From the NCBI GenBank assembly GCA_017619835.1, contig JAFZRN010000021.1, positions 1-64,000 of the forward strand: 64,000 nucleotides of DNA, written 5' to 3'. Shown here piece after piece: positions 2 through 48,979 of this stretch. How positions within the stretch are numbered: position 1 is the stretch's first letter; every line of letters begins with the position of its first letter. The position numbers were made by a program, and so were the translations under genes. The stretch comes from Eubacterium sp. GTDB taxonomy: Bacteria; Bacillota; Clostridia; Lachnospirales; Lachnospiraceae. Below the pieces are notes generated by a model that was not told the DNA's origin, ran no database searches, and worked only from the letters and a program-made list of their open reading frames with translations.

Positions 2-3000
2 AGGACATCAGGTAAGAAAAACAGCCGGAATATAACATCGATCATAGATGATGCAGAGATAATAGAGATGCCGGATATCGCATCTCCCATACATGAGATA
101 ATAAAAGAAGATTCCGGACTTAACTGGGATATCTATTCTTCATATAAGAATTACGGCAGTGATGAGATCAAGCTTGATAAGAACATATATGTTAAGGACG
201 GAGTATCCTTTAATGGAACAAGTTTCAGTACATCCGGAATGATAGTTGCCAAAAAGGATGTAAACTTTAATATTCATAAGACTGAGCCTGTTACAGATGA
301 AACCATCTTTATATCGTCTGAAAAGGGCGACATCAATATCAACGGCAGCAGCATCTATATGAATGCTGTAATCTATGCTCCCAAGGGAACAGTACGTGTA
401 AGTGCAAACGAGTTCCATCTGAACGGAAGGATCATAGCTAAAGAAGTTGTGATCAACGGAACAGTGATTGAGATAAATGCAGGAAGTCATGATTATGATA
501 TGTTAGATAATCTCGGTCTATTTAATCATGATGAAGAGCCTACGGCAACACCTTCACCAACGACAGAACCTACAGAGGCACCAACAGTAGCACCTATAGC
601 AACGGCAACGCCGAGTGCAACACCTACAGCAACGGCAACAGCAACGCCGTCAGCAACACCTACAGCAACAGCAACGGCGACTCCGAGTGCGACACCGACA
701 AAGGCACCAACGGCAACCCCAAGTGCAACACCTACAGCGACAGCAACACCAAGCGCGACACCGACAAAGGCACCAACGGCAACGCCGAGTGCAACACCGA
801 CGGCGACAGCAACGCCAACTGTGAGACCAACAGCAACACCGAAGCCAACGCCAACTCCTGAATTTATTAAATGCTTTGACACCAGAGAGGATTTTAAAAC
901 ATCTTTAAATAGTTCAGGTATTGATTCTGATGCTGAGTTTATTAGTACACATATCAGTGATGAAAACATATATTCTGCGAATAATGATAATGATCCTGCC
1001 GGAATCATATTAGACAAAGAAAAAGTAGACAATATAAGCATCGATAAGAGTTATGATTTTGGGAATATAAGTATATCAGAAGAGTTTAATGGTTTGTTTG
1101 ATTCTGAAAATGTAGGATCATTTTCCGGTGAAATGAAACTTACATTAACATCAAAATCAAATCGTATAAAACATGTTAGTTTCAATAAAAACCATGCATA
1201 TGCTGTATCCGAGGACAAGCTTAAGTGGAAAGATGCCCAGACAGTATGTGAAACCATGGGAGGCCATCTTGCAGTAATAGATGATGAAAAGGAAAATGAA
1301 TTTGTAAGACAGCTAGCGGAAGATACAGGGAAAAAAGGTTATGTTGCCATAGGGTACACTGATGAAATAAATGAAGGAAGATGGAACTGGATCAATGGTT
1401 CTGACAGTAAGTATACTAACTGGGATAATAGAGAACCTAATGATGGTCTAAATATATATGATCACCAGAATTATGCATACATGCTCGAATCAGGAAGATG
1501 GGATGATGGCGTTGAATTTGAGAATTATTATTATGTATGTGAATGGGAAGATGTAAATGAATTTGCATTATATAGTATTAATTCTGTAATAGTAAAAATG
1601 ACTGTTCCTGCTGATGCAGTAATAAAGAATGAAGGTTCTGATCTTGAGCTGTTTGATGATAACAGTTCTGAAAAAATCATCGTCTGGAAGACGACCATAG
1701 ATGAAGAAAGCAGCATAAATATCCCGATAGAAATCAATACTGAAGATGGTGAGACAGATATCATAAAGGATATAGCTGTATATTATAACGAAAATGGCGA
1801 GATCCGTTCAGAAAAACTTGAAGATGTCGTTATCAAAAACAGTAAATATTCTGATCTGGGAACATGGATAAGTGTTTGCGATGCAGGTGTGATAGGATCC
1901 AAGTGGTCATATTTTGATATGGAAGCATTATATCCAAATGATGGAAGTGTCGAAGTATATGCGTTTGCATCAGATGATCTGGAAAAAGTACTATCATTTG
2001 AAGATGTAAATGAACTAAAGAGGATTGATACTGATGAAGTATATAAAGTATATGGATTAAGGAATCTGGTTGGAAGATATCTGCTTTTAAAGGTTGTACT
2101 AAACCCATCAAGTGAGGGAAGAACTCCTTACATTGATAAGATTTTCGTAGGGGCAAATACATATAAAATACCTGTGAAAAAAGATACAGTGTTCATTCAA
2201 AAGGATATCGTGGGAAATGACATCCTGAATATAGGAGAGCAGGCTTCATTTGAATATAAAACTGTTACCACAGAAGAAGTGCTTTCAAATGTTGAATGGT
2301 ATATAGATGGCGAAAAGACTTTTGGTGAAGAAAGATGGGGAAGCAGGATATATGCAATATTTGAAAACTCCGGTAATCATACGGTAAAAGCAAAATATGA
2401 AGAAGTACCGTCAGGATCCGCATCAAAAAAGATTTCGGTATTATCACCTATTGATCATATCAACTTAGATGATCTTATATCGCCTATAATAGAGTATCCG
2501 TTTTTTAATATGCAGCTTGATAAAACTTCTTATGTAAGTGGTGATGATGTTCAGGTCATTACCGATATAAAAGAAGAGTACATAAGCAGGGTCTTTTATG
2601 ATGATAAAATCTCTGAAGAGGGATTATCAGAAGGGAAAGCTGTAATAAAAGACGTGACAGAAGGAACTCACTCAATCCGTATAGAAACTGAAAATTCATA
2701 TGGCAATAAGTATTCCGGAACGATAGAGTTTAATGTTTATAAAGCTTCTCCGGATGTAAAGACATGGTTTGATAAGGATAAATATTTTGAAGGTGATGAT
2801 GTCCTGCTTTTTATAGAAGAAGGGTACACCATTACCGGGTGTCTTCTGGATGATTCTGATGAAAATATTACTATAAATGAAAGTGATTGTGTTACATTTA
2901 AATCTCCGTCAGCCGGGAATCACCTGATAACACTTAGATTTAAAAAAATGGATACAGAAGAAACAGAGACTTTGGATTTATATCTATTTGTAAATCAGGC

Positions 3001-6000
3001 TCCGATACTTTTGTATAGTGATAATGTTCCGCCGACAGCGATTATATCAGATCCTCAACCCGGAGCTGTATTAAGTGATGATATAAACATCGTAGGTTCT
3101 GTTAAAGATGATGCAGAGTTTGATAGTTATACACTGTCATATAAGAAGGATGGAAATGATGAGTATCATCTGTTTGCTTCGGGAAAAGAAGAGATAGAAA
3201 ATGGACTCCTTGGCATCTTAAATACCGCGGAACTACTTGCAGGTACATATGAAATAAAACTTGAAGCAGCTGACAGGGCGGGAAATAAAAAGATTTACAA
3301 GATAGGTATAAGTGTAGATAAATCCGGATGGGATGGAAACACAGATGATAATAATCCGATTTCCTTAACCCTTTCACATTCTCACACAATGGTTGGAACA
3401 GAGGTTACAGCTCAGGTAAATCTTGCGGAAGGTATGAAACTGGATAACCTGAAACTGTATAAGGATGACATGCTGTTATCTGAAAAAGAACTGATGTCTC
3501 ATTTTACTTCTGAAAAGGCCGGAAGAGTAGTAATCAAAGCAGTATATACACCTGATGAACCGGAGGAAGAACTGGTTTCGACAGCAGAGTGTACTTTTTC
3601 TGATGGTTCTGATAAAAAGAAGCCCATAGCAGAGATAATATCACCTGATTTCATTGATCCGATAAAGGTTCCTACAGAAATAATAGGCACAGTGTCAGAT
3701 GAAACTGGGCTGGATTTCTGGCGCCTTGAATACAGAATGATCCCTTATACTGATTATATATCAATAAACGAAGGGACAGAAGAGATTGAGAACGATATCC
3801 TGGGAGAACTGGATCCATCGATTCTGATAAACGGAAATTATGAGCTTAGATTATGTGCACAGGATAAAGGTGGAAATATCACCAAAGTAACAAAGAAGTT
3901 TATTGTAGAAGGAAATCTCAAGATTGGTGACTATCATATAGGTTTTACTGATGTTACGGCATCAATGGGCGGAACAACTGTCAATGTCAACAGAATATAT
4001 GACAGCAGGAACAAAAAAAGAGGTGATTTCGGATATGGATGGTCGATGGATGTGACAGGAATGAGACTGTCAGAAAGTAACAGCCTCGAAGACGGATATA
4101 CAATGACGAAAACGGGATCAGTACTTACTTCTTCGTATCGGCTGACGGAATCGCTCAGTCATGATGTGGTCATAACTTATGGGGATGGGTCCAGTGACAG
4201 GTTTTCACTCGTTATCTATAATGGGTTCAGTGTTATGACTCCTATCTATGATGTAAGTCTTGGATACAGATGTGTCACAAATCAGAATGTGAAACTGGAG
4301 ATACTGGCAGATACAACTGCTTTTTATGAAGGAGGACGATTGGCATTTCTGGATGAGTCAGTATATGGCGTGCTGAATTACAAACTCACTACTGACGAGG
4401 GAAATGAGATATATCTGAATAAGAATATCGGTGTTTATAAGATGGTAGATCCATCCGGACATGAAATAAGAATTGATAAAGATGGTTTTCATTCCGATGA
4501 CGGTAAAAACATAGAGTTTGAAAGGGACAGAAAAGGAAGGATAGTCAGGATAACTGACCCTTTAAATAATGAAACGAGATATACATATGATAAAAACGGT
4601 GATCTGATCGAGGTAACAGATAGTGCAGACAGAACTGTATCATATACCTATGATAAGGAGCACAATCTGATTTCAATCACTGATCCAATGGGTATTGCTG
4701 TTTCCAGAAACGAGTATGATGACGAAGGACGTCTTGTGGCAATCATTGATGCTGAAGGGAACAGAATGGAGTTTTCTCATGATGTTGATGGAAGACAGGA
4801 AGTCATAAAGGACAGACGTGGTAATCCGACAGTTTATGTATATGATGATAACGGAAATGTACTCCAGACAACAGATGCACTTGGAAATATTACAAAGAAT
4901 ACTTATGATGAATTCAATAACTGTACATCAACAACTGATGCCAATGGCCATACAACGGAGTATTCTTACGATGCAAACGGGAATAACACTTTGATAACGG
5001 CTCCGGATGGAACAAAGGTAGAAAAGCAGTATTCTGAAGAGAATTATATAACAGGTATAAAAAATGTTGATCTAACAGTCATGGCAATGACATATGATAA
5101 TAATGGTGCTCTTACATCTGTTTCTGATGCAAAAAGAAACAAAAAAATGTATGAGTATAATGCGGATGGCAGATTAACGGGAATGACAGATTCCATAGGC
5201 GTATACCAGAAGCTGACTTATGATCCGGATGGAAATGTTGTTTCATCAGAGAATGGTGCCGGAGAAAGTGTGTATTATACTTATGATGATAAGAACAGAT
5301 GCACAGGAGTGACAATCAAAAGAATAGAAGATGGAAAAGAAGTATCGCTAACCAGCAGATATACATACGATGAAGCAGACAACAAAATCCAGAGTATTGA
5401 TAATGCCGGTAATGTAACTTTATACGAATATGATGCAAATGGTAATCAGACCGCAAGCGTTGATGCAAAGAACAGACGAACAACCTATAAATATGATGAT
5501 CGAAGTAATCTTATAAGAATTGTATATCCAGATGGTACTTCTGAGGGCTTTGAGTATGATGCTAATGGTAACAATATTACCGCAATCGACAGAAGCGGAC
5601 TTAAAGTCAACATGACATATGATAAGCTTGACAGAATAGTATCAAAGACATATGCAGATGGAAATAGGGAAAGCTACACTTATGATGCGGTTGGTAATCT
5701 GATAGAGCAGATAAGTGTGACAGGAGCTAAGACTACATACACTTATGATGAATGCAACAGGAATACATCTATTACGGATGCATTTGGTAATACGACATCA
5801 TTTCAATATGATGAACAAAGCAGACTCAGTATTAAATCAGATGCAAAGTATAATTGTACATATTACAAGTATGATTACAATGGAAATATTACAAGTACCC
5901 AGTATCCTATGGGACAATCAGTAAGTGCATGGTATGATGAAAGAAACAGGGTGATTCAACAGTCGGATCAAAGGGGGCATTTAACTAATTATGAATATGA

Positions 6001-8338
6001 TGCGGCAGATAAACTTACGAGAGTTACGGATGCGTATAAAAACAGCTACACATATTCATATAATGAAAATGGCAATCTGATAAAGGTAACAGATCCTCTG
6101 GGACATTCGACAGAGTATACTTATGATGCGGTGGGGCATGTCGCATCTGTTAAGAATGCGGCTGGAAAAACTGCAACATATGAATATGATTCGACCGGAA
6201 ATCTTATCTCGGAAGTTGATTTTGCAGGACATGAGACAAAGTATTCCTATGATGAGATGGACAGGATTATCAGTAAAAAAACTGCTGATAACAGTATAAC
6301 ATATAATTATACAGAAACTGGACGTATCAGCAGTGTAAGAGATGATAATGGAACTGTAAGTTATAAGTATGATAAATATAACAGACTCATATCATATACA
6401 GATGCTGATAATGTGACCGTATCATATACCTATGATAAATACGGCAACATAGAAAGCATAGATAACGGTTTCAATAAGACAAAGTATGAATATGATATCC
6501 TGAACAGACTGACGAAAGTCATTGATCATAATGAAAAAGCAACTGAATATGAGTATGATGAATTTGGCAATCTAAGTATAATGCGTTACCCGAATGGTAA
6601 TTCAATATACTATAAGTATGATAAGAATCAGAGGCTCACATCAGAAGAGATAAAAGATGCATCAGATAATAAGCTGGCAGGGTATTTTTATTCGCTAGGA
6701 GCTTGTGGAGAGAGGACGCTTGTCACTGAAGAGGATAGTTCAAAAAGAATAAAGACAACAAGATCATACACATATGATAGCCTGAATCGCCTTACCAAGG
6801 AGATAATAACCAGAGATAATACAAAACTTATTCAGGAATATACTTATGATGCAGTAAGTAACAGGATATCTAAGGAGACTTCGGTAACAGGAGATATATC
6901 AGTTCTTGCCGATACAGATCTTGATGAGATAGAAGTCAAGACGGGGACGACATACTATACTTATAACGAACTGAACCAGCTGGTGTCTGAAACTAATGGA
7001 TCAGATACGATCATTTATACATATGATGATAATGGTAATCTTATCAGCGAACAGGGAGATAAGCGGAAAAACTATGTTTATGATTCCGAGAATCATCTTA
7101 TATCAGCAACGGTTCAGAAAGGCAGCAATGTTACTAGTGAATCTTACACATATGACTATGCCGGAAACAGAACATCAAAGACAGTAAATGAACTTGATGT
7201 CACAAACTATGTTAACGATATCAGTAGTGACCTCACATATGTCTATGCAGAAACGGATAAAGATGGTAAACTTAAAAAGTCATATACCAGAGGACATGAA
7301 CTGATATCAGTTGAATCAAAGTCAGCTATAACAGGTCAAAAAAATGCCATTCATTATTACATTAATGATGGACAAGGCAGTGTAAGATTACTTACAGATT
7401 CAGAAGGAATTATTACAGACAGGTATTCATATGACGGCTACGGGATTCTGTTAGAGAAAGAAGGAGACACAGAGAACGACTTCCTGTATACAGGAGAACA
7501 ATACAACTACATAACAGAGCTATATTATCTGAGGGCAAGATACATGGACCCGTCAACGGGAACATTTATCAGCATGGACAGCTATGCTGGTTCTCTTAGT
7601 GATCCAATATCACTGCATAAGTATCTCTATGCAAATGCCAATCCTGTGATGAATACAGATCCGAGTGGATACTTATCGGCTACTGAATTAGTTGGTGGTT
7701 TGGCAATAGCTTCAATTTTAGTGGTTGCATATAGCTCTTTTGCATCAATGAATATGCAACGCTCATTAAAAAAGATGGCACTGACGAGTGAGGCAAATGC
7801 GACAATTAGTTATAACAGTTTTTCAGTTATTCTAGTTGAAGTAATTGGGATAAAACTGTTTTTGGAAATGTCTGCAAAAGAAATAAAGGATATAGCAGAA
7901 GATAAATATGTCAAAGAATATAAAAAAGAAGAAGATGATACTAAAGGAAATTATTTTGTTTATACTTTAGTTGATGCAGATGGAATAGTCAGGTATGTTG
8001 GAAGAACAAAAGACTACGAAAGACGTATGAGGGAACACGCAAATAATGGTAAAATAAAACAGTACAATTTATATAGAGGCCCATATTATTCTGGATTAAC
8101 AAAAGAAGAGGCTAGAGGAATAGAGCAGAAACTGATGTTGTTTTATCATACTTTAAATACTGCTAAAGATCCGGATGTAATGTTTTATAATTTTGTAAAT
8201 GGTGTGAATAATAATAATAAAGCCATTGATATCTATAAAAGAGAAACAATTAAATATTTCAAAAAATATCCGACGTATTTTGAAAATCAAGTGGATAATG
8301 AGTATGATAATATTACAGAAGAAATAGAAGGGTGGTAA
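2..8338 (+). CDS. Giant RHS/YD-repeat surface protein with C-type lectin-like domain and GIY-YIG toxin tip (5' end outside window)
   Basis: Polymorphic-toxin type RHS protein. The frame is open from base 2, so the gene starts upstream; an internal ATG at 68 gives 2756 residues, used for numbering here. In order: a beta-rich N-terminal part; a Thr/Pro/Ala-rich linker (about 155-264); a C-type lectin-like domain (about 372-494) with EPND and a late WDD; several Ig-like segments; an RHS entry region near 1290; many YD repeats (about 1490-2460); and the RHS core ending in [14 protein letters not shown] and NTDPSG (about 2470-2535). After a hydrophobic stretch comes a GIY-YIG-like nuclease (about 2626-2700: [15 protein letters not shown]). 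By family knowledge the YD repeats form a shell around the C-terminal toxin. The lectin-like domain may bind a target surface, which is inference. The next gene is the likely immunity partner. Confidence 0.93.
536..858 (+). repeat. Degenerate Thr/Pro/Ala-coding tandem repeats
   Basis: Short repeats built from units like GCAACGCCGAGTGCAACACC encode a proline/threonine linker ([10 protein letters not shown] type) inside the RHS gene. They separate the N-terminal beta domain from the lectin-like part. Such linkers are common in secreted proteins of Lachnospiraceae, where they act as flexible wall-spanning stalks. Length change by slippage is plausible. Long open frames on both strands here come from the composition and are not genes. 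Confidence 0.9.
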
Positions 8339-8344
8339 TAAGTT

Positions 8345-9169
8345 ATGAGAGATGGAAAAAAAATCCTTTTTGACCAGTTTTGGGGGGGAGGAGGATGGAA
8401 AAATTATTATCATCTAAATATATCTGAAGAAGAATTTAATCTTGCTAAAGAAAAAGGATATATGTTTGATTATCCTGATGCTATTACGCATCAGGAGTAT
8501 TTGGAGAGATTGAAAAAGAATGTTGAAGTAATCGATGTTAAAGATGTTGCTGATTCATTTTTATATAGTCTATCCACAAGAAAGCTTGAATATAGATCTG
8601 TGTTAGGTAGTTATTGGTATGCTATAGCCATGCCTCAACATGAATATAAAGGCGATGGGGTCTGTCCTGTTTGTAGGTGGTTTGCTTGGGAGAAATCACC
8701 TGATAATAAGGAAATCATACAAGGTCTAAATACTTACAGTTTTGAAAGATACAAATGGGGTGGCATAAGATATAATGCTCATTCATATGCTTTATTCGAT
8801 TTGGAACAATTCTTAAAGCTTGAAAAACATGATCATACTGAAGAGGATGAAAAAATATTACATGATATACTCGCTTGCGTTTATGAATTATCACCGAAGA
8901 ATAAAGCCGGAGCTTTACGTGATTTAATAAGTAAGAAAAAAATCTTTAAAACTAACAAACAGGAAATATCAACGATATTAGATGCATTGGGAGTATGCGG
9001 AATATTATCATCAAAAGAATTTCCATGTTATTATGATGATTTTTATCATGACAGAGATTGCGAAGAGTTAACCAATGACTTCTTATATCCTACTAATAGA
9101 TGGCGGGCATCTGATGGAATTAATACAGAGTGTTATGAAAGGGTATTTGGTAAACCATTTGTCTTATAA
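8345..9169 (+). CDS. Putative immunity protein for the GIY-YIG tip of the RHS protein
   Basis: A 274-residue soluble protein that I do not recognise. It starts 6 nt after the RHS stop, downstream of a GGGTGG ribosome binding site, so it is co-transcribed with the toxin tip. That position is the classical place for an immunity gene, and the function is inferred only from position. Features: a GWKNYYHLNI segment near the N-terminus, one CPVC pair (about residues 106-109), no signal peptide and no membrane segment. A run of seven G (8382-8388) and a run of eight A lie in the first 15 codons. The DNA is AT-rich like the rest of the cassette. Confidence 0.7.
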   Translation: MRDGKKILFDQFWGGGGWKNYYHLNISEEEFNLAKEKGYMFDYPDAITHQEYLERLKKNVEVIDVKDVADSFLYSLSTRKLEYRSVLGSYWYAIAMPQHEYKGDGVCPVCRWFAWEKSPDNKEIIQGLNTYSFERYKWGGIRYNAHSYALFDLEQFLKLEKHDHTEEDEKILHDILACVYELSPKNKAGALRDLISKKKIFKTNKQEISTILDALGVCGILSSKEFPCYYDDFYHDRDCEELTNDFLYPTNRWRASDGINTECYERVFGKPFVL

Positions 9170-9239
9170 ATATAGATTATATATTCCATTTCATTTTTCT
9201 TTAAAGTAAAATTCTGTAACTGCATAGCATGGCAATAGT

Positions 9240-10478
9240 GTGATAAGTGAAGACTACACCTATGACTATGCCGGAAATAGAACATCAAAGACAGTTAATG
9301 AGCTTGATGTAACTAACTATGTAAACGACATCCACAGTGACCTTACATATGTTCTTTCGGAGACAGATAAAGATGGAAAGCTGAAGAAAAGTTATACAAG
9401 AGGAGAAGAACTGATCTCATCTGAGATTGGAACACAGTCTTCAAGCAATAATTCAACTGCAAGCGATAACACTGTCCGTTATTTCATAAATGATGGTCAT
9501 GGAAGTGTAAGACTTCTTACTGATTCAGAAGGAAATATCACCGACAGATATTCATACGATGGCTATGGAAATCTACTCGAAAAAGAAGGCGATACAGAGA
9601 ACGATTATCTATATGCAGGAGAACAGTATAACTATACAACTGAGCTTTATTATCTCAGGGCCAGATATATGGATCCGTCAACGGGAACATTTATCAGTAT
9701 GGATAGCTATGCAGGGACATCTGATGAGCCGATATCTTTACACAAATATCTCTATGCAAATGCAAATCCTATAATGAATACTGATCCGAGTGGTAATACC
9801 GCAAGATTGGATGAGCAAACAACTGCTTCTGCTGGAAGAGTAAGTGTTTCTTCTGCTGTGGCTCGTCATGATCAAACAGTTCTTATAATATTAAATAATT
9901 TGAGAAATAAATTGATGACGGCTGAGACTCAAATGATTCTTACCTCGGCAATGGCTACAATAATTTCAGAATATTTACTAGAAGAGGCAAATGCTTTAAC
10001 GATTCAAAATGTTGATACAGAGAAAAAAATCAAAAGCTATGCTGTTGCCTATCAGAAAGAAGATAAAAAAATTTGGGATGTTTATACTGTATATACATTA
10101 AGAGATGATAATGGGATTGTTAGATATGTAGGAAGAACTAAGGATTATGATAGAAGAATGACTGCCCATGCTAGACCTGGTGGTAAAATGCAAAGATATG
10201 GATTAATACCAGGAGAACGTTATGATGGCTTATCTTGGGAAGAATGTAGAGCTCTTGAACAAACATTAATGGTTGCTTATCATTCATTAAACAGAACGAA
10301 GGATATGGGCAATTTGGGTGTAAATTTTGTTAATGGAATTAGTATATTAAATAATAATAAGATAATATATTACAATGCTTTTAAAGATTATTATGATAAA
10401 TATCCTGACTATTTTGAAAACCAGATTCAAAATGAAATAAGTAATATTTTGGAGGATATGGATTGCTGGTGGGATTAG
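9240..10478 (+). CDS. Orphan RHS C-terminal cassette with a second GIY-YIG toxin
   Basis: Displaced RHS tip. Its first about 190 residues repeat the end of the large RHS protein ([20 protein letters not shown] through the MDPSTGTF core), with many synonymous differences. Homology starts abruptly near 9231, just after an in-frame stop at 9225-9227. The only start is GTG 9240, with no ribosome binding site, so it is probably silent unless recombined into the long gene. The C-terminal part (about residues 285-400) is a GIY-YIG domain ([18 protein letters not shown] near 345) homologous to the tip of the main protein, with a different connecting segment. Orphan toxin cassettes are a known feature of RHS loci. 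The next gene is the likely immunity partner. Confidence 0.8.
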   Translation: MISEDYTYDYAGNRTSKTVNELDVTNYVNDIHSDLTYVLSETDKDGKLKKSYTRGEELISSEIGTQSSSNNSTASDNTVRYFINDGHGSVRLLTDSEGNITDRYSYDGYGNLLEKEGDTENDYLYAGEQYNYTTELYYLRARYMDPSTGTFISMDSYAGTSDEPISLHKYLYANANPIMNTDPSGNTARLDEQTTASAGRVSVSSAVARHDQTVLIILNNLRNKLMTAETQMILTSAMATIISEYLLEEANALTIQNVDTEKKIKSYAVAYQKEDKKIWDVYTVYTLRDDNGIVRYVGRTKDYDRRMTAHARPGGKMQRYGLIPGERYDGLSWEECRALEQTLMVAYHSLNRTKDMGNLGVNFVNGISILNNNKIIYYNAFKDYYDKYPDYFENQIQNEISNILEDMDCWWD

Positions 10479-10517
10479 TATTATGATTATATAATAATGC
10501 AAAAGGAGATAATAGAA

Positions 10518-11384
10518 ATGTCAGAAACATGGGGAGCAGGAATATTTCAGAATGCATCCGGAGAAGATATAAAAAATTATTATATGGCTATGCTAAAAAG
10601 AGGGGCTTCAGATGATGAGGCATATGATGCATCTTTAAAGGTGTTAAAAAACTTCACGGATGAAGAGAGTAGAAGTAATGCCATAATTGGATTGGCATAT
10701 ACAATGTGGAAATATGGGAGAATAAACGATAATGTTAGAGACTTACTTAATGAAGCGCTCGGTTACGAGAATAGAAGGGTGTGGAATAGTAAAAATAAAG
10801 AAAAACAAAGAAGTAAGAATATTGTCAAACTACAAAATGACTTATCAGTAGATGTTGAGAGAAAGAAGGTTCCAATATATAAGCCTTTTATAACAGACTG
10901 GAAAGCAGGAGATGTTTATTATTTTAAGTTAAATGAAGATGGTGTTTATGTTCCAGATGATTTTAAAGGATATTATGTGATTATGTTAATAGTATCTGTG
11001 TATCAAAAAGATTGGGATGTAAGATACATTAATAGTGATATATCCCAGGTAAGATTTTATATGTTAAATCATAAGCCTCTCAATGTAGAAGAAATACATG
11101 ATTCAGTTCCGATTTGTTTTAGAAAGCCGCTTATAGATCCTATAGGAATAAACCATTCGGTGGTTTTTTCGGGATATTTTTGTGAAAGATCTAAGAATAA
11201 GAGACCAAAAGATTTAACGTTTTTAGGTAGATATGATGAGAATGATCGTATTAAACAATTATATCAAAATAATGCGTTGATTTTATTTTGGGGTGATTTA
11301 CTTGAAAAAGAGCTTATACAGGGGTTTGGAAATACTATTGATCTAATAAAAGAGCATAAGAATAAAACTGACGGATTAAAATAA
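10518..11384 (+). CDS. Putative immunity protein, DUF4259-like N-terminus
   Basis: A 288-residue cytoplasmic protein following the orphan GIY-YIG cassette. I start it at ATG 10518 because AAGGAG at 10503-10508 lies 9 nt upstream; an in-frame ATG at 10497 has no such site. The opening SETWGAGIFQN resembles the start of DUF4259 proteins (GAWGxGxFxND), followed by a helical region and then a beta-rich half with WKAGDVYYFKL. DUF4259-type proteins often sit in toxin-immunity loci. The role as immunity to the 9240 toxin is inferred from position. It does not resemble the immunity candidate at 8345, although the two toxins are homologous. Confidence 0.65.
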   Translation: MSETWGAGIFQNASGEDIKNYYMAMLKRGASDDEAYDASLKVLKNFTDEESRSNAIIGLAYTMWKYGRINDNVRDLLNEALGYENRRVWNSKNKEKQRSKNIVKLQNDLSVDVERKKVPIYKPFITDWKAGDVYYFKLNEDGVYVPDDFKGYYVIMLIVSVYQKDWDVRYINSDISQVRFYMLNHKPLNVEEIHDSVPICFRKPLIDPIGINHSVVFSGYFCERSKNKRPKDLTFLGRYDENDRIKQLYQNNALILFWGDLLEKELIQGFGNTIDLIKEHKNKTDGLK

Positions 11385-11451
11385 AATTTAAATTCGTTAA
11401 AAATTTATGTCATGTATTCATTAATACTTTAGAGGATATATGACGCTGTAT

Positions 11452-11489
11452 AACCCCGTTATGATTCGTTATTTTTTCTTAACGGGGTT
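11452..11489 (+). terminator. Hairpin at the orphan RHS junction
   Basis: Perfect 10-bp inverted repeat: AACCCCGTTA at 11452-11461 and TAACGGGGTT at 11480-11489, with an 18-nt AT-rich loop. There is no U-run after it, so it is a weak terminator at best. Its right arm coincides with the first base of homology to the RHS core, which suggests it marks or formed at the recombination junction. Confidence 0.45.
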
Positions 11490-12382
11490 CTGTTAGAGAA
11501 AGAAGGAGAAACAGAAAACGACTTCCTGTATACGGGAGAACAGTACAACTACATAACAGAGCTATATTATCTGAGGGCAAGATACATGGACCCGTCAACG
11601 GGAACATTTATCAGCGTGGACAGCTATGCGGGAACCATCTATGATCCGGTATCACTGCATAAGTATCTTTATGCAAATGCAGATCCGATCAATAATACGG
11701 ATCCGAGTGGAAATATGACCATGACTGAAGCAATAGGATCATTAGCTATAGCAGCAATATTGACTGTAGCGATGATTTCGGTTATGTCTCAGTTTAAGGA
11801 AAACACTCTAAAATCCGGACCAATTATTGGGTTTCCGTATAATTTAAGAAGGGATTTGGAAAAAATGATTGAGGCTTTCCCTGCATATAAGGAAGAGCTT
11901 GGAAATCTAATAGAAATAATCCCTAGAATAATTCTTGAAATAAAAATATTTGAAATAATATTTAAAACTTGTATTTATACTGTATTGATAGAAATCTTTC
12001 CTGCAACAAGTGAAAAAGAACCGATTTTTATTACGATTGAAAGTGATAGTGAACCAGTAGATGTTAAAATATCAAAAAAGAAGTATCCGGAATCAGCTAA
12101 ACATAAAGAAGAAGCAGTTAAAAATGGTCAGCCAGATACTTTAACTATAGATAGAAAAGGCGCATCAGAACGTAGAAAAAAATCCTTGCAAGGAGTTGAT
12201 ACTATTCCTGGTTCGGATAGAGATGAATACCCCCCCCGGCTATGTCTGAAGAAGGGGGAGAAGGGGCAAGTGTAAGGCACATTAGTCCTTCGGATAATAG
12301 AGGCTCAGGATCTTCAATATCTCATCAATTAAGAAAATATCCCGATGGAACAAAATTTAGAATTGTTATAGTAGAGGATTAA
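11484..12382 (+). pseudogene. Orphan RHS tip with NucA/NucB-type nuclease toxin, frameshifted in a C8 run
   Basis: Second displaced RHS tip. Bases 11484-11700 match the RHS core of the first gene closely (about 7 differences in the first 165 bases by eye). Then comes a hydrophobic linker like that of the main protein (TEAIGSLAIAAIL), then a NucA/NucB-like nuclease: YPESAKHKEEA, DTLTIDRKGASERRKKSL, GSDRDEYPP. At 12230-12237 there is a run of eight C. The current frame runs into unrelated residues and stops at 12275. Reading the other frame from 12239 restores the family C-terminus (AMSEEGGEGASVRHISPSDN, then GSGSS and the LRKYPDGT segment) and stops at 12382, 3 nt before the next gene. There is no own start codon with a ribosome binding site. 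It is either decayed or a slippage-switchable silent cassette. Confidence 0.85.
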
Positions 12383-16444: not shown

Positions 16445-16479
16445 AATGTGACAAACTGATCTGAACTGTTTGTCACATT
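16445..16479. repeat. Palindromic repeat, copy 1
   Basis: Arms AATGTGACAAAC (16445-16456) and GTTTGTCACATT (16468-16479). Read on the minus strand, its central 33 nt differ from the copy at 41267-41299 at only two positions. It overlaps the TGA stop of the tagF-like gene and lies just before the tagD ribosome binding site. There is no U-run. Likely a small REP-like interspersed palindrome. Confidence 0.8.
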
Positions 16480-26940: not shown

Positions 26941-27123
26941 ATGACGGATATCAGCGGAAGGCTTTCGAAGCTTTCCGGCAGCAGACTCCAGATGCTGGAG
27001 GAGACCGAGGCCATGAGTGAGCTTACCCGGGATGTGGATGCGATAAAGCAGTTTGTTCCGTGGTATGAAAGCGTGGCCGGAGATACTTCTTCTTGCGAAG
27101 AGAAGAAATCTATGATACCATAA
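26941..27123 (+). CDS. Possible 60-residue small protein
   Basis: An open frame between glgP and the SCIFF gene with neighbour-like codon use (AAG, CTT, GAG) and a plausible amphipathic helical product (SGRLSKLSGSRLQMLEE). There is no recognisable ribosome binding site and no family that I know. It may equally be untranslated spacer whose end holds the SCIFF promoter. No membrane segment. Confidence 0.35.
   Translation: MTDISGRLSKLSGSRLQMLEETEAMSELTRDVDAIKQFVPWYESVAGDTSSCEEKKSMIP
27093..27121 (+). promoter_or_regulatory. Candidate promoter of the SCIFF peptide gene
   Basis: TTGCGA at 27093-27098 and TACCAT at 27116-27121 with a 17-nt spacer. Both boxes deviate from consensus. The predicted leader of about 35 nt carries GAGGAG before ATG 27162. 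Confidence 0.45.
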
Positions 27124-27161
27124 CGTAGATAATTATTTTGAATATACGAGGAGAATTAGTT

Positions 27162-27311
27162 ATGGAGAGAATAAAGACTCTTGAAACAAGGGACCTCTGT
27201 GAAAGCGCTAAGACAGGCGGATGCGGTGAGTGCCAGACATCATGCCAGAGTGCTTGCAAGACCAGCTGTGGTGTTGCTAATCAGAAGTGTGAGAACTCAT
27301 CAGAGGAGTAA
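27162..27311 (+). CDS. SCIFF (six cysteines in forty-five) ranthipeptide precursor
   Basis: A 49-residue peptide with Cys at 13, 21, 24, 28, 32, 36 and 43 and the hallmark CGECQTSCQSACKTSC core followed by VANQKC. SCIFF peptides are near-universal in Clostridia and are cross-linked by a dedicated radical SAM enzyme that makes Cys-to-Thr thioethers; their cellular role is unsettled. GAGGAG precedes the ATG. Odd point: after Cys36 the residue is Gly37, where the peptides I recall (CteA type) have Thr37, the acceptor for Cys32. An intrinsic terminator follows immediately, and the maturase lies 635 nt downstream beyond a repeat element rather than directly adjacent. Confidence 0.95.
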   Translation: MERIKTLETRDLCESAKTGGCGECQTSCQSACKTSCGVANQKCENSSEE

Positions 27312-27318
27312 GAGGATG

Positions 27319-27345
27319 CGCCGCCACCCACGTGGCGGCGTTTTT
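27319..27345 (+). terminator. Intrinsic terminator of the SCIFF gene
   Basis: CGCCGCCAC (27319-27327), loop CCAC, GTGGCGGCG (27332-27340), then TTTTT. It starts 7 nt after the SCIFF stop, so the peptide can be made from a short transcript separate from the maturase. Confidence 0.88.
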
Positions 27346-27361
27346 CGTACACCTGATAGTT

Positions 27362-27500
27362 GAAGCGGATCTATAGAGGTGCACCTGATATTTGAAGCGG
27401 GTATACCGCAACCATGTTCCCCTTCGAAGCGCCGGAGAAGGCGCTCGAAGTGAAACAGATTGCGCCCTCCCGCGCTTACCGAATTGGAGACGGACGGTGC
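27362..27500. repeat. GC-rich palindromic module, copy A1
   Basis: A 139-nt non-coding module nearly identical (3 differences) to 27772-27910. Terminal pairing TGCACC (27380-27385) with GGTGCA (27496-27501); internal hairpin TTCGAAGCGCC (27423-27433), loop GGAGAA, GGCGCTCGAA (27440-27449); then the conserved string TGCGCCCTCCCGCG. Related copies at 48457-48580 keep the pairing with base changes on both sides. No protein product is credible. Confidence 0.85.
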
Positions 27501-27534
27501 AAGTGATATATATGCACAGAGAAGAGTGGCAAAA

Positions 27535-27728
27535 AGCTAACAAATCAATTGTTTTATTGAAAATGTTAGCCATATATGATGAAAACTATAGTAATTTAGT
27601 TTGATTTAATAGAGTAGGGCTAATAAAAACTGAAAAATCAGAAAAATGTTAGCTTGATTCTATAAATATATATAGTTTATAAGGATAAGCGGCTAACAGA
27701 AACATTGTTTTGCTAAAGAATATTAGCT
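27535..27728. repeat. Three AT-rich GCTAA/TTAGC hairpins (module B)
   Basis: Three successive inverted repeats: GCTAACA 27536-27542 with TGTTAGC 27564-27570; GCTAA 27619-27623 with TTAGC 27649-27653; GCTAA 27692-27696 with TTAGC 27723-27727. Some have a second inner stem (CTG...CAG, CAAT...ATTG). The same three hairpins in the same order occur at 48621-48814. No open frame of interest. Confidence 0.8.
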
Positions 27729-27771
27729 GTAGCATTAATACTTATGTGTATAAGAGGTGCAGCTGTGAGTC

Positions 27772-27910
27772 GAAGTGGATCTATAGAGGTGCACCTGATA
27801 GTTGAAGCGGGTATACCGCAACCATGTTCCCCTTCGAAGCGCCGGAGAAGGCGCTCGAAGTGAAACAGATTGCGCCCTCCCGCGCATACCGAATTGGAGA
27901 CGGACGGTGC
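27772..27910. repeat. GC-rich palindromic module, copy A2
   Basis: Direct repeat of 27362-27500 with three base differences over 139 nt. Hairpin arms at 27833-27843 and 27850-27859. It is followed by CACGTGGTGGCGGCGCAT (27911-27928), which is the reverse complement, bar one base, of the SCIFF terminator start at 27316-27334. The maturase gene starts 36 nt after the module. Confidence 0.85.
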
Positions 27911-27946
27911 CACGTGGTGGCGGCGCATAAAGAAGGATAAAATTAA

Positions 27947-29395
27947 ATGGTACATCAGTATAAATTGAATGGTTATAATATAGTGCTTGATACGTGCTCG
28001 GGGTCGGTGCATAGAGTGGATGACGTCGCGTATGATATCATTGAGCTTTTTAAGGAGAAGAGTGAGGATGAGCTGGTTGACATAATCCTGGAGAGATATG
28101 GTGACCGGGAGGATGTCACTGAGGAGGATGTGCGTCTTTGCATAGATGATGTGCGTGCTCTTGAGGCTGCTAATAAGCTCTATACTCCGGATACTTTCGA
28201 ACCACTCGCAGGTGAGTTTAAGAGAAGGAGTGGTGATGTTATCAAGGCGCTCTGTCTCCATGTTTCTCATACCTGCAACCTTAACTGTGAATACTGCTTT
28301 GCAAGCCAGGGCAAGTATAACGGTGAGAGGGCTCTGATGAGTCTTGAGGTTGGTAAGAAGGCGATTGATTTTCTTGTTGAGCACAGTGGTAAACGCCACA
28401 ATCTTGAAGTGGATTTCTTCGGCGGCGAGCCTCTTATGAACTGGGAGGTCTGCAAGGATATCGTAAGATATGCCCGTTCGATAGAAAAAGAGGCGGGAAA
28501 GAATTTTAGATTTACTCTTACTACCAACGGAATGCTGATAGATGATGATGTGATAGATTTCTGTAATAAAGAGATGAGCAATGTTGTTCTTTCGCTCGAT
28601 GGTCGTAAGGAGGTTCATGACAGGACCCGTGTCGATTATCTCGGAAACGGAAGCTTCGAGAAGATAATCCCGAAGTTCCAGAAGCTTGTTAAGGCAAGGG
28701 GCGGAAAGAACTATTATATGAGAGGGACATTTACCCATCTCAACACTGATTTTACAGAGGATATATTTACGATGGCGGATCTCGGCTTTAAGGAGCTTTC
28801 GATGGAGCCGGTAGTTAGTAAGCCCGGAGACAGCCTGGCGCTGACTGAGGAAGACCTTCCGATCCTGAAGGAGCAGTATGAGATACTTGCCAAGGAAATG
28901 TTAAAGAGAGATATCGAGGGTAACGGCTTTACGTTTTATCATTACATGATAGATCTTAAGAGCGGACCCTGTATATATAAGAGAATCTCGGGCTGCGGCT
29001 CGGGTACCGAATATATGGCTGTTACTCCATGGGGTGACCTCTATCCCTGCCATCAGTTTGTAGGTGATGAAAGCTACAAGCTGGGTAATCTCTGGGAGGG
29101 TGTCACGAACCATGACAGACAGGAAGAGTTCCGTGTATGTAATGCCTATGCACGTCCCGACTGCAGGAACTGCTGGGCTATGCATTACTGCTCGGGTGGA
29201 TGTGCCGCTAATGCATATCATGCAACGGGCGATGTGAAGGGTATCTATGAATATGGATGTGAGCTCTTCAGAAAGCGTATGGAATGTGCGATAATGATCC
29301 AGGTGGCTCATGATGCACTCGGACTTGCTCCGGTGAGCGGAGCGACTGCGGGCGGAACCGATGCCTGTGACGGCTGCGAAGAAACCTGTGAATAA
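27947..29395 (+). CDS. SCIFF radical SAM maturase (thioether-forming, SPASM)
   Basis: A 482-residue radical SAM peptide maturase of the CteB type, expected to join a SCIFF Cys thiol to a carbon of a nearby acceptor residue. N-terminal about 85 residues: a winged RiPP-recognition-like domain. Radical SAM CNLNCEYC with Cys110, 114 and 117 binding the [4Fe-4S] cluster, then FFGGEPLMN. The C-terminal SPASM/twitch region has Cys residues around GPCIYKRISGCGSG, LYPCHQF, and CRNCWAMHYCSGGC for auxiliary clusters. The tail ends DGCEETCE. A purine-rich AAGGATAAA ribosome binding site precedes the ATG. Its partner peptide is upstream across the repeat element. Confidence 0.95.
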   Translation: MVHQYKLNGYNIVLDTCSGSVHRVDDVAYDIIELFKEKSEDELVDIILERYGDREDVTEEDVRLCIDDVRALEAANKLYTPDTFEPLAGEFKRRSGDVIKALCLHVSHTCNLNCEYCFASQGKYNGERALMSLEVGKKAIDFLVEHSGKRHNLEVDFFGGEPLMNWEVCKDIVRYARSIEKEAGKNFRFTLTTNGMLIDDDVIDFCNKEMSNVVLSLDGRKEVHDRTRVDYLGNGSFEKIIPKFQKLVKARGGKNYYMRGTFTHLNTDFTEDIFTMADLGFKELSMEPVVSKPGDSLALTEEDLPILKEQYEILAKEMLKRDIEGNGFTFYHYMIDLKSGPCIYKRISGCGSGTEYMAVTPWGDLYPCHQFVGDESYKLGNLWEGVTNHDRQEEFRVCNAYARPDCRNCWAMHYCSGGCAANAYHATGDVKGIYEYGCELFRKRMECAIMIQVAHDALGLAPVSGATAGGTDACDGCEETCE

Positions 29396-41267: not shown

Positions 41268-41299
41268 TGTGACAAACAGATCAGATCTGTTTGTCACAT
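41267..41299. repeat. Palindromic repeat, copy 2
   Basis: Perfect palindrome: ATGTGACAAACAGATC (41267-41282), one A, GATCTGTTTGTCACAT (41284-41299). 31 of 33 bases match copy 1 at 16446-16478 read on the other strand. Its first base is the last base of the HAD stop codon. No U-run. Confidence 0.88.
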
Positions 41300-48366: not shown

Positions 48367-48378
48367 GGTGTAGAGGAA

Positions 48379-48495
48379 AGTGCAGCTATGAATTGAAGCG
48401 GGTATAGCGCAGCCGGGAGTGCAGCTACGAATTGAAGCGGGTATAGCGTAGCCGAGAGTGCAGCTACGAATTGAAGCGGGTATAGCGCTACCATG
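48379..48495. repeat. Three 39-nt tandem units leading into a GC-rich module
   Basis: Units start at 48379, 48418 and 48457, each reading AGTGCAGCTAYGAATTGAAG then CGGGTATAGCG. The third runs on into the hairpin module. They follow the permease stop by 12 nt. A degenerate two-unit version precedes copies A1 and A2 at 27 kb. Confidence 0.85.
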
Positions 48496-48580
48496 TTCCC
48501 CTTCGAGTGCCGGAGAAGGCCCTCGAAGTGAAACAGGATTGCGCCCTCCCGCGTTTACTTTATTAGAAACGTACGCTGCA
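48457..48580. repeat. GC-rich palindromic module, copy A3
   Basis: Homologue of 27362-27500. Terminal pair TGCAGC (48459-48464) with GCTGCA (48575-48580), a compensated version of TGCACC/GGTGCA at 27 kb. Hairpin TTCGAGTGCC (48502-48511), loop GGAGAA, GGCCCTCGAA (48518-48527). The string GCGCCCTCCCGCG is conserved. Confidence 0.83.
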
Positions 48581-48620
48581 AGAAAGAAAATGAAATGCCA
48601 GGACGTGAATCCATTGAAAA

Positions 48621-48814
48621 AGCTAACAAATCAAATATATAAGAAAAAATATTAGCTGATTATATAGATAAATATATCAATTAGATGTTTTAAGAGAAGA
48701 ACTAAGCTAATAAAATGAGATATATTGAAAATTTATTAGCTGTAAGATATAAAAATCCATGTTTTAAGGAGAAAATCGGCTAACAAAAACCGTTTTAAGC
48801 ATAAAATATTAGCT
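48621..48814. repeat. Module B, copy 2: three GCTAA/TTAGC hairpins
   Basis: GCTAA 48622-48626 with TTAGC 48652-48656; 48716-48720 with 48736-48740; 48779-48783 with 48809-48813. Order and flanking words (AAAAAGCTAACAAATCAA, CGGCTAACA, ATATTAGCT) match 27535-27728. No gene seen. Confidence 0.8.
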
Positions 48815-48832
48815 TACGAAAAATATGGGACA

Positions 48833-48872
48833 GCGCCCTCCCGCGTTTACTTTATTAGAAACGTACGCTGCA
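48833..48872. repeat. GC-rich module, partial copy A4
   Basis: Exact 40-nt copy of 48541-48580 (the 3' end of copy A3), placed after module B as A2 is at 27 kb. The 5' half with the hairpin is missing. The remaining 107 nt to luxS are AT-rich with a TATAAT at 48924-48929. Confidence 0.85.
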
Positions 48873-48979
48873 AAAATGAAAGATTAATAAAGTAGAATAA
48901 AATATATAGAAAAAAAGATTGATTATAATATAAAGATAGAGTATAACAAGAAGAACAGTTTGAGTGTAAGGAAGTTGAT

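Follow-up and report, generated by a model that had tools for sequence, protein, structure and literature searches.

A folded, dispersed repeat found sense-wise behind stop codons in Eubacterium sp., and its mosaic between the SCIFF and maturase genes

The block between the SCIFF and maturase genes

The window, that is, the whole 64,000-nt stretch of Eubacterium sp. DNA analysed here (contig JAFZRN010000021.1, positions 1 to 64,000), carries on its forward strand a gene for the SCIFF (six-cysteine ranthipeptide) precursor at 27162..27311 (TIGR03973, 78.8 bits, E 2.1e-22) and, further downstream on the same strand, the SCIFF maturase gene at 27947..29395 (TIGR03974, 752.9 bits, E 1.1e-226). The SCIFF start was picked by eye from an upstream ribosome-binding site; the frame is also open from a TTG at 27138, from which the TIGR03973 scan was run. 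SCIFF is followed by a terminator-like hairpin (27318..27341, + strand), and a block of ~570 nt lies between this hairpin and the start of the maturase gene. This block contains two full copies of a module, here called A, on either side of a middle region, B. The first full copy (27377..27504, + strand) and the second (27787..27914, + strand) each cover positions 1-128 of the covariance model described below, and in the first the terminal stem pairs 27381-27385 with 27496-27500. Directly upstream of both, on the same strand, stands an incomplete 5′ end of A (27347..27376 and 27757..27786, respectively), an arrangement that is also seen at other copies. The B region holds three GCTAAY...RTTAGC inverted repeats, to which no strand applies, at 27536..27570, 27619..27653 and 27692..27727. 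These features agree with the first-pass annotation, which had described two GC-rich 139-nt modules of about 98% identity flanking three AT-rich GCTAA/TTAGC hairpins between the SCIFF terminator and the maturase: positions 27362-27500 and 27772-27910 are equal at 136/139 positions (97.8%); between the 124-nt cores, 27377-27500 versus 27787-27910, 122/124 letters agree, and a longer, 154-nt version of the repeat shows 95% identity. The G+C content is 58-59% in the module cores and 24% in the middle. No sigma-70-like promoter site was found in 27100-27960, where shuffles give a mean of 1.7.

At the right-hand end of the block, the sequence CCACGTGGTGGCGGCGCAT (27910..27928, − strand) overlaps the last positions of the second module A model and is, as had been noted, the reverse complement, less one G, of the left-hand portion of the SCIFF terminator (27316-27335). 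The 13-nt perfect core of this outer inverted repeat is reached in 0/2000 mononucleotide shuffles of the right flank. Two origins had been proposed for it, namely that the block had entered the terminator palindrome or had duplicated part of it. Entry is not favoured, because the SCIFF terminator upstream of the block is intact and because, among the relatives' SCIFF gaps inspected by eye, most have a terminator-like hairpin and one (locus L021) has a downstream inverted copy. The segment at 27910-27928 instead looks like an inverted partial duplication of the terminator, and this duplication may have happened in the same event by which the block arrived. In the one relative concerned (G040), the inverted terminator-like copy lies, by eye, 3′ of a different block, in a position like that of 27910-27928 in the window. 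Positions 27316-27928 form a local mosaic of two A modules, extra partial 5′ ends, a B spacer and an inverted terminator scrap.

A second composite is located near 48 kb. It begins with two partial 5′ ends of A in tandem (48372..48455, + strand, start set by eye) at 39-nt spacing, followed by a full module A identified by the covariance model (48456..48583, + strand), a second B region (48622..48813, no strand assigned) and a partial 3′ end of A that closes the composite (about 48828..48875, + strand). The three inverted repeats of this B region (48622-48656, 48706-48740 and 48779-48813) have a spacing that matches the 27 kb composite. When the two B regions are aligned, all GCTAA/TTAGC boxes are conserved and the sequence between them has drifted, so that conservation is limited to the outer motifs; compared with mononucleotide shuffles, the 27 kb copy folds with a z of −5.1 and the 48 kb copy hardly does (z −1.5). 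The claim that the module arms co-vary with the copy at 48 kb holds for the terminal stem, in which GCACC/GGTGC at 27 kb becomes GCAGC/GCTGC with both sides changed, but not for one inner pair, which turns U.U.

The A-B-A layout, which the first-pass annotation had taken as the element, occurs only twice in the genome, the second time degraded and ending in a partial A, whereas A stands without B at the 8 other loci. The real unit is module A and not the composite. The GCTAA pattern occurs at 8 places in the genome: the two composites account for 6, and contigs C9 and C38 each have a single match close to their start; B-like boxes thus also exist without A. On C38, a second, similar inverted repeat lies beside the match (by eye). 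GCTAA matches in other genomes were rejected as B, since by eye they look like repressor operators, coding sequence or other arrays, and 81 stretches of the B-array pattern in viral contigs were taken as chance. An array of GGCTAAT...ATTAGCC inverted repeats that resembles the B boxes by eye is present in another genome (G034, contig C7, locus L076). Repeats of another kind, which look YD (Rhs-type) by eye, lie in a large open frame of the window (68-8338 and 7354-11695), parts of which recur at 9479 and 11396.

Copies, fold and placement of module A

Module A is a dispersed repeat of ~120 nt with 11 full copies at 10 loci of its own genome, identified by DNA search and by a covariance model (R1) built from these 11 copies. 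R1 gave 22 own-genome matches, the other 11 being the opposite strand of the same copies or the partial copy at 48.8 kb. In other genomes of the genus, R1 recognised a single copy in G022 and another in G052. A second model (R2), built from 13 distinct sequences, found 7 diverged copies at E <= 0.01 in four same-genus genomes (G052, 3; G013, 2; G022, 1; G037, 1), with E <= 3.3e-5 for six and 0.003 for the weakest; all align over model positions 1-128. With its own genome included, A is therefore carried by 5/61 genomes of the genus, in which 56 candidates were scored per genome under stricter filters than in the family search. A model search across 397 Lachnospiraceae genomes recovered A in its own genome only, an absence that is weak because 8 candidates were scored per genome. 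A BLAST-type search of the 61 same-genus genomes returned the own copies and two short matches (G029, which is a SCIFF terminator, and G011); the diverged copies were found by the covariance models and not by this search. With a covariance model the family is easily recognised. The G022 copy is also present in a public contig, JAFZXD010000291.1, from Eubacterium sp. isolate RGIG8178 of the water buffalo rumen. Pattern scans for A gave one match in viral contigs and another in Bacterium HR40, neither of which the model confirmed. Rfam release 15 holds no family matching A at the gathering cut-off, nor at E <= 1 for 27100-28000. As found so far, module A is confined to this genus.

The fold of A consists of a terminal stem, an internal loop with conserved letters, a GCGGG/CCCGC stem and a long apical hairpin. 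Covariation was assessed for 34 pairs in a plain alignment of the 11 own copies that was not fitted to the structure. In this alignment, 97.6% of the cells are paired, versus 36-51% with the partner slid by 1-3 columns, and both sides are changed at 10/34 pairs (23 cells); 0/500 shuffles, which ignore the relatedness of the copies, reach either count. One of the five covariation measures, the number of further pair types, does not rise above the shuffles (155/500 reach it). Covariation across the 11 copies is strong beyond the pair of modules at 27 and 48 kb with which it had been noticed. When the G022 copy and one G052 copy are added, 18/34 pairs are changed on both sides, in an alignment that was model-fitted and leans toward the model. 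The 5-nt terminal arms vary among copies (GCAGC, GCACC, GCGCC, ACGCC, ATGCC and GCGGC) and pair fully inside 15/18 copies, with one mismatch each in L053, L235 and L236. The loops contain letters that are invariant among the own copies. The most diverged copies are those of G013 and G037, and the GCGGG stem is missing or poor in L232, L233 and L235.

The two strands are not equivalent in this fold. Sense-strand folding exceeds dinucleotide shuffles in 6/6 copies tested (z −1.9 to −4.7, weak for G022). The antisense strand folds better than the sense strand in 11/13 copies, because two conserved C.A oppositions (in 10 and 11 of 11 copies) become G.U. In contrast, the wobbles within structure pairs point to the sense strand, opposite to the comparison of folding energies: 9 cells are G.U in sense, a single weak pair supplying 7 of these, versus 3 that would be G.U in antisense. 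Of the proposal that the block could be a structured RNA, the fold with paired changes is borne out for module A, and the better antisense folding speaks against a simple sense-RNA reading.

With respect to genes, A lies in sense with the upstream gene at 17/17 loci (10 own, 1 in G022, 3 in G052, 2 in G013 and 1 in G037), a result with a probability of 2^-17 if orientation were random and the loci independent. Among the upstream calls, def before fmt was assigned by eye and SCIFF by TIGR03973. The downstream genes are co-directional at the 15 loci that have a clear one; of the other two, L236 has no clear downstream gene and the L232 locus ends at a contig edge. Co-directionality alone is unsurprising, as 21/26 window gaps of at least 20 nt are co-directional in a crude gene call. 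The sense orientation is surprising unless it follows the direction of replication, which it may partly do. The model start lies 10, 2, 2, 6, 1 or 5 nt from the stop codon and in one case overlaps it by 3; at the remaining loci A begins ~20-90 nt past the stop codon, and the interval often contains a partial 5′ unit or a terminator-like hairpin. Family models applied to 10 proteins identify functionally mixed neighbours: dnaN, ribD, ribE, fmt, folC, clpB, infB, a pyrimidine-nucleoside phosphorylase, a type II topoisomerase B subunit and a YicC-type gene. The topoisomerase gene, on which both the gyrB and parE models score, is cut by a contig end, and clpB is also cut. ABC transporter genes, a histidine kinase and def were assigned by eye. 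A separate palindrome family of ~31 nt, TGTGACAAA...TTTGTCACA, also occurs near gene ends (window 16447-16477 and 41268-41298; L003, L007 and L086 by eye), and at L003 and L007 a version of it stands, by eye, directly 3′ of module A.

Sites without module A, and the possible origin of its copies

To compare filled sites with their counterparts, the corresponding loci of same-genus relatives were inspected. In the own genome the dnaN-S4 gap is 230 nt long and includes A and a TGTGACA hairpin. Its counterparts in the four relatives closest in dnaN measure 8, 12, 95 and 10 nt, and 12/13 relatives examined have 0-95 nt. In the exception (G032, locus L094), a gap of 225 nt holds what by eye looks like a different tandem palindromic repeat. 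With R2 at E <= 1, no A was detected in 56 relative loci (29 at SCIFF, 13 at dnaN and 14 at folC). At the folC site the relatives have gaps of varying length; clear short empty sites are seen at one locus, dnaN-S4. Filled and empty sites, a trait of miniature inverted-repeat elements (MITEs), are both present there, and A is absent from the relatives' SCIFF, dnaN and folC sites. A is also, like MITEs, short, non-coding and dispersed; with 50-61% G+C, its matches are not A+T-rich. In the loci read, no gene lies within any full copy, nor is any gene bracketed by full copies in the manner of a larger element's termini. None of the three results that the first-pass annotation had named as refuting its reading arose: related genomes carry further copies, the stems covary, and relatives do not have this sequence as a constant feature of the SCIFF-maturase gap. 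The suggestion of a non-autonomous mobile element is partly borne out for the unit A, if not for the composite. The A family looks young, since its sites differ between species.

For the SCIFF locus, 29 loci were fetched from 52 relatives with a SCIFF match, and 28 remain when one without a maturase in view is set aside. The SCIFF-maturase gap is 61-200 nt in 20 of these and 357-711 nt in the other 8 (L016, L017, L019, L021, L022, L023, L025 and L029), which hold folding blocks without A. All 8 large gaps, terminator included, fold far better than 40 mononucleotide shuffles each (z −6.1 to −17.9), and one such block family is itself dispersed, with matches in 11/61 genomes and 16 pieces in G029. 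The absence of A from the relatives' SCIFF-maturase gaps argues that A is not a SCIFF regulator, and the presence of non-A blocks there places the peculiarity of the locus in the site and not in module A. These results point to the SCIFF-maturase gap as a recurrent landing place for unrelated folding blocks. The block at SCIFF is built from a repeat family that is not special to the SCIFF or maturase genes.

Further features are found at the ends of the copies. By eye, a repeat of the copy's own 5′ end (~27-39 nt) lies directly upstream in 6/11 own copies, the one at L045 degenerate, and these partial units break off close to where the long hairpin starts. A partial 3′ end follows A at 2 loci (L004 and L008). 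A 5′ partial is also present in G052 (L234); in G013 the unit is doubled in tandem at L232, and short stretches of the ends are repeated at L235. The motif ACGKAC precedes both the 5′ and the 3′ arms in 3/18 copies (L066, L232 and L235), with GGACG shared by L233; it may be what is left of a tandem unit, or else a repeat of the target. No constant target duplication is found among the 18 copies tabulated, and TA follows no rule at the tabulated copy ends, whose exact positions are uncertain by a few bases. A transposase search confined to PF01797 gave a single Y1 match in the own genome (L140, G000:C2:75239-75565), which by eye resembles a RAYT; it is flanked by GGGGTCTGACCCC and GGGGTCAGACCCC palindromes, and the 3.3 kb around it contain no module A. 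A RAYT as mobiliser of A, in the manner of REP/BIME, is unsupported, as A does not flank the one Y1 gene. Identity with integron attC sites was dropped by eye from a comparison with their core motifs.

The dispersal of A, its absence from the relatives' dnaN, folC and SCIFF sites, the paired changes in its stems, its sense orientation and its closeness to stop codons are probably best accounted for by a non-autonomous dispersed repeat of ~120 bp that settles in sense behind stop codons and is likely co-transcribed as an interrupted hairpin. Such a repeat would move as DNA with help in trans, and the partial 5′ ends may arise by slippage or template switching at replication stalled on the hairpin. 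Because A lies in sense and close behind stop codons, it is probably transcribed with the operon, where it could be tolerated as an intercistronic hairpin and might, by analogy with what is reported for ERIC, affect how the operon mRNA is processed or how stable it is. At the SCIFF locus, where SCIFF ends in its own terminator-like hairpin, the block would mainly lengthen the space between the terminated SCIFF transcript and the maturase. The same copies could instead be single-stranded DNA hairpin cassettes moved by a recombinase or an HUH-type enzyme, with the fold kept for DNA recognition and not for RNA. The better antisense folding, the conserved oppositions that stay unpaired on the sense strand, the ACGKAC motif before both arms and the tandem unit in G013 would fit such a cassette, but the PF01797 search found no fitting enzyme, its lone match lies among other palindromes, and the terminal arms, which change from one copy to the next but keep their pairing inside a copy (fully in 15/18), are unlike fixed recognition ends; this alternative is considered unlikely. 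That variability of the arms also allows a bolder and similarly doubtful proposal, in which a self-spreading folded cassette is aimed sense-wise behind stop codons, grows by truncated 5′ units and spreads via its fold, as transcript or single-stranded DNA, and not via fixed ends. If true, a folded cassette with variable arms that pair within nearly every copy would be a new class of non-autonomous element.

A functional role was also weighed, in which A is a cis-acting RNA, or a protein-binding site, that coordinates a set of operons. The covarying stems, the invariant loop letters and the uniform sense orientation are what such an RNA would show, yet the neighbours are functionally mixed, the sites of the model matches differ between species and Rfam holds no family for A, which together make a coordinating role rather improbable. 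Far less credence is given to a SCIFF-specific regulatory device, such as a switch between the terminator and a long-range stem ATGCGCCGCCACC/GGTGGCGGCGCAT. The exact 13-nt outer inverted repeat and the terminator-like inverted copy after a different block in G040 are in keeping with it; A, however, recurs at 9 other loci of its own genome and in none of the SCIFF loci of 29 relatives, and the distal arm of the long-range stem would be made only past the termination decision. The draft state of the assembly (44 contigs) raises the question of assembly artefacts or chance palindromes, an explanation of negligible probability given that the copies lie inside contigs of 52-239 kb with different flanks and that related copies occur in four other assemblies, one of them also as a public MAG contig.

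Comparison with known short repeats

Enterobacteria, Neisseria and streptococci have well-characterised short structured repeats (PMC2267715, PMC3049150 and PMC2229807). For Lachnospiraceae, none of the titles listed in a search confined to the open-access literature dealt with such elements. The first-pass annotation knew of no named element with the A-B-A layout. This agrees with the Rfam result, but the BOX element of Streptococcus pneumoniae is modular in what may be a comparable way: in the sections of PMC3049150 used, it is built as boxA-boxB-boxC, with boxB absent or in several copies, its ends are paired in the fold, it is spread in one species and sparse in relatives, and some copies are transcribed. 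By description, A resembles BOX in being short, with paired ends, and in being spread through one genome and sparse in relatives; its build, A-B-A at one locus and A-B-partial A at a second, may be modular in a similar sense. Unlike BOX, A rarely forms its composite and usually stands without B. The orientation also differs: the same sections give BOX a mild coding bias (60.8% on the leading strand) and an overrepresentation between convergent genes, whereas A is in sense behind the upstream gene at every locus.

The ERIC/IRU repeats of enterobacteria, as summarised in portions of PMC2229807 and PMC2267715, are 127 bp long and form one long hairpin, and TA termini and target duplications are listed for them. 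In Yersinia, a portion of PMC2229807 reports that ERIC copies are co-transcribed inside operons, with an orientation-dependent effect on the upstream mRNA. A is similar to ERIC in size and in its one long hairpin, and the co-transcription in operons reported for ERIC is predicted for A; it differs in that its tabulated ends show neither a TA rule nor a constant target duplication. YPAL/RU-2 of Yersinia is described in the same portion of PMC2229807 as 168 bp long, not A+T-rich, without TA termini and with internal inverted repeats, its targets spanning or adjoining dyad symmetry. A is like YPAL, by description, in not being A+T-rich, in the lack of TA termini and in its inner inverted repeats. 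At some loci (SCIFF and, by eye, L067 and L236) a terminator-like hairpin precedes A, which is reminiscent of YPAL's dyad targets. In contrast to YPAL, most copies of A follow a stop codon without a hairpin, and the length differs. A is also similar, judged by the table entry in PMC2267715 and not by sequence, to bcr1 of Bacillus, a family of intergenic repeats from another Firmicute whose members are 147-167 long and share a conserved stem-loop.

The best reading of A is a BOX/ERIC/YPAL-like non-autonomous structured repeat, likened to these elements by description and not by sequence, and A represents a new family within a known broad type of element. Its placement, in sense and behind stop codons, is unusually strict. 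This strictness makes the family a test case for whether such hairpins are tolerated gene-end parasites or parts of operon control.
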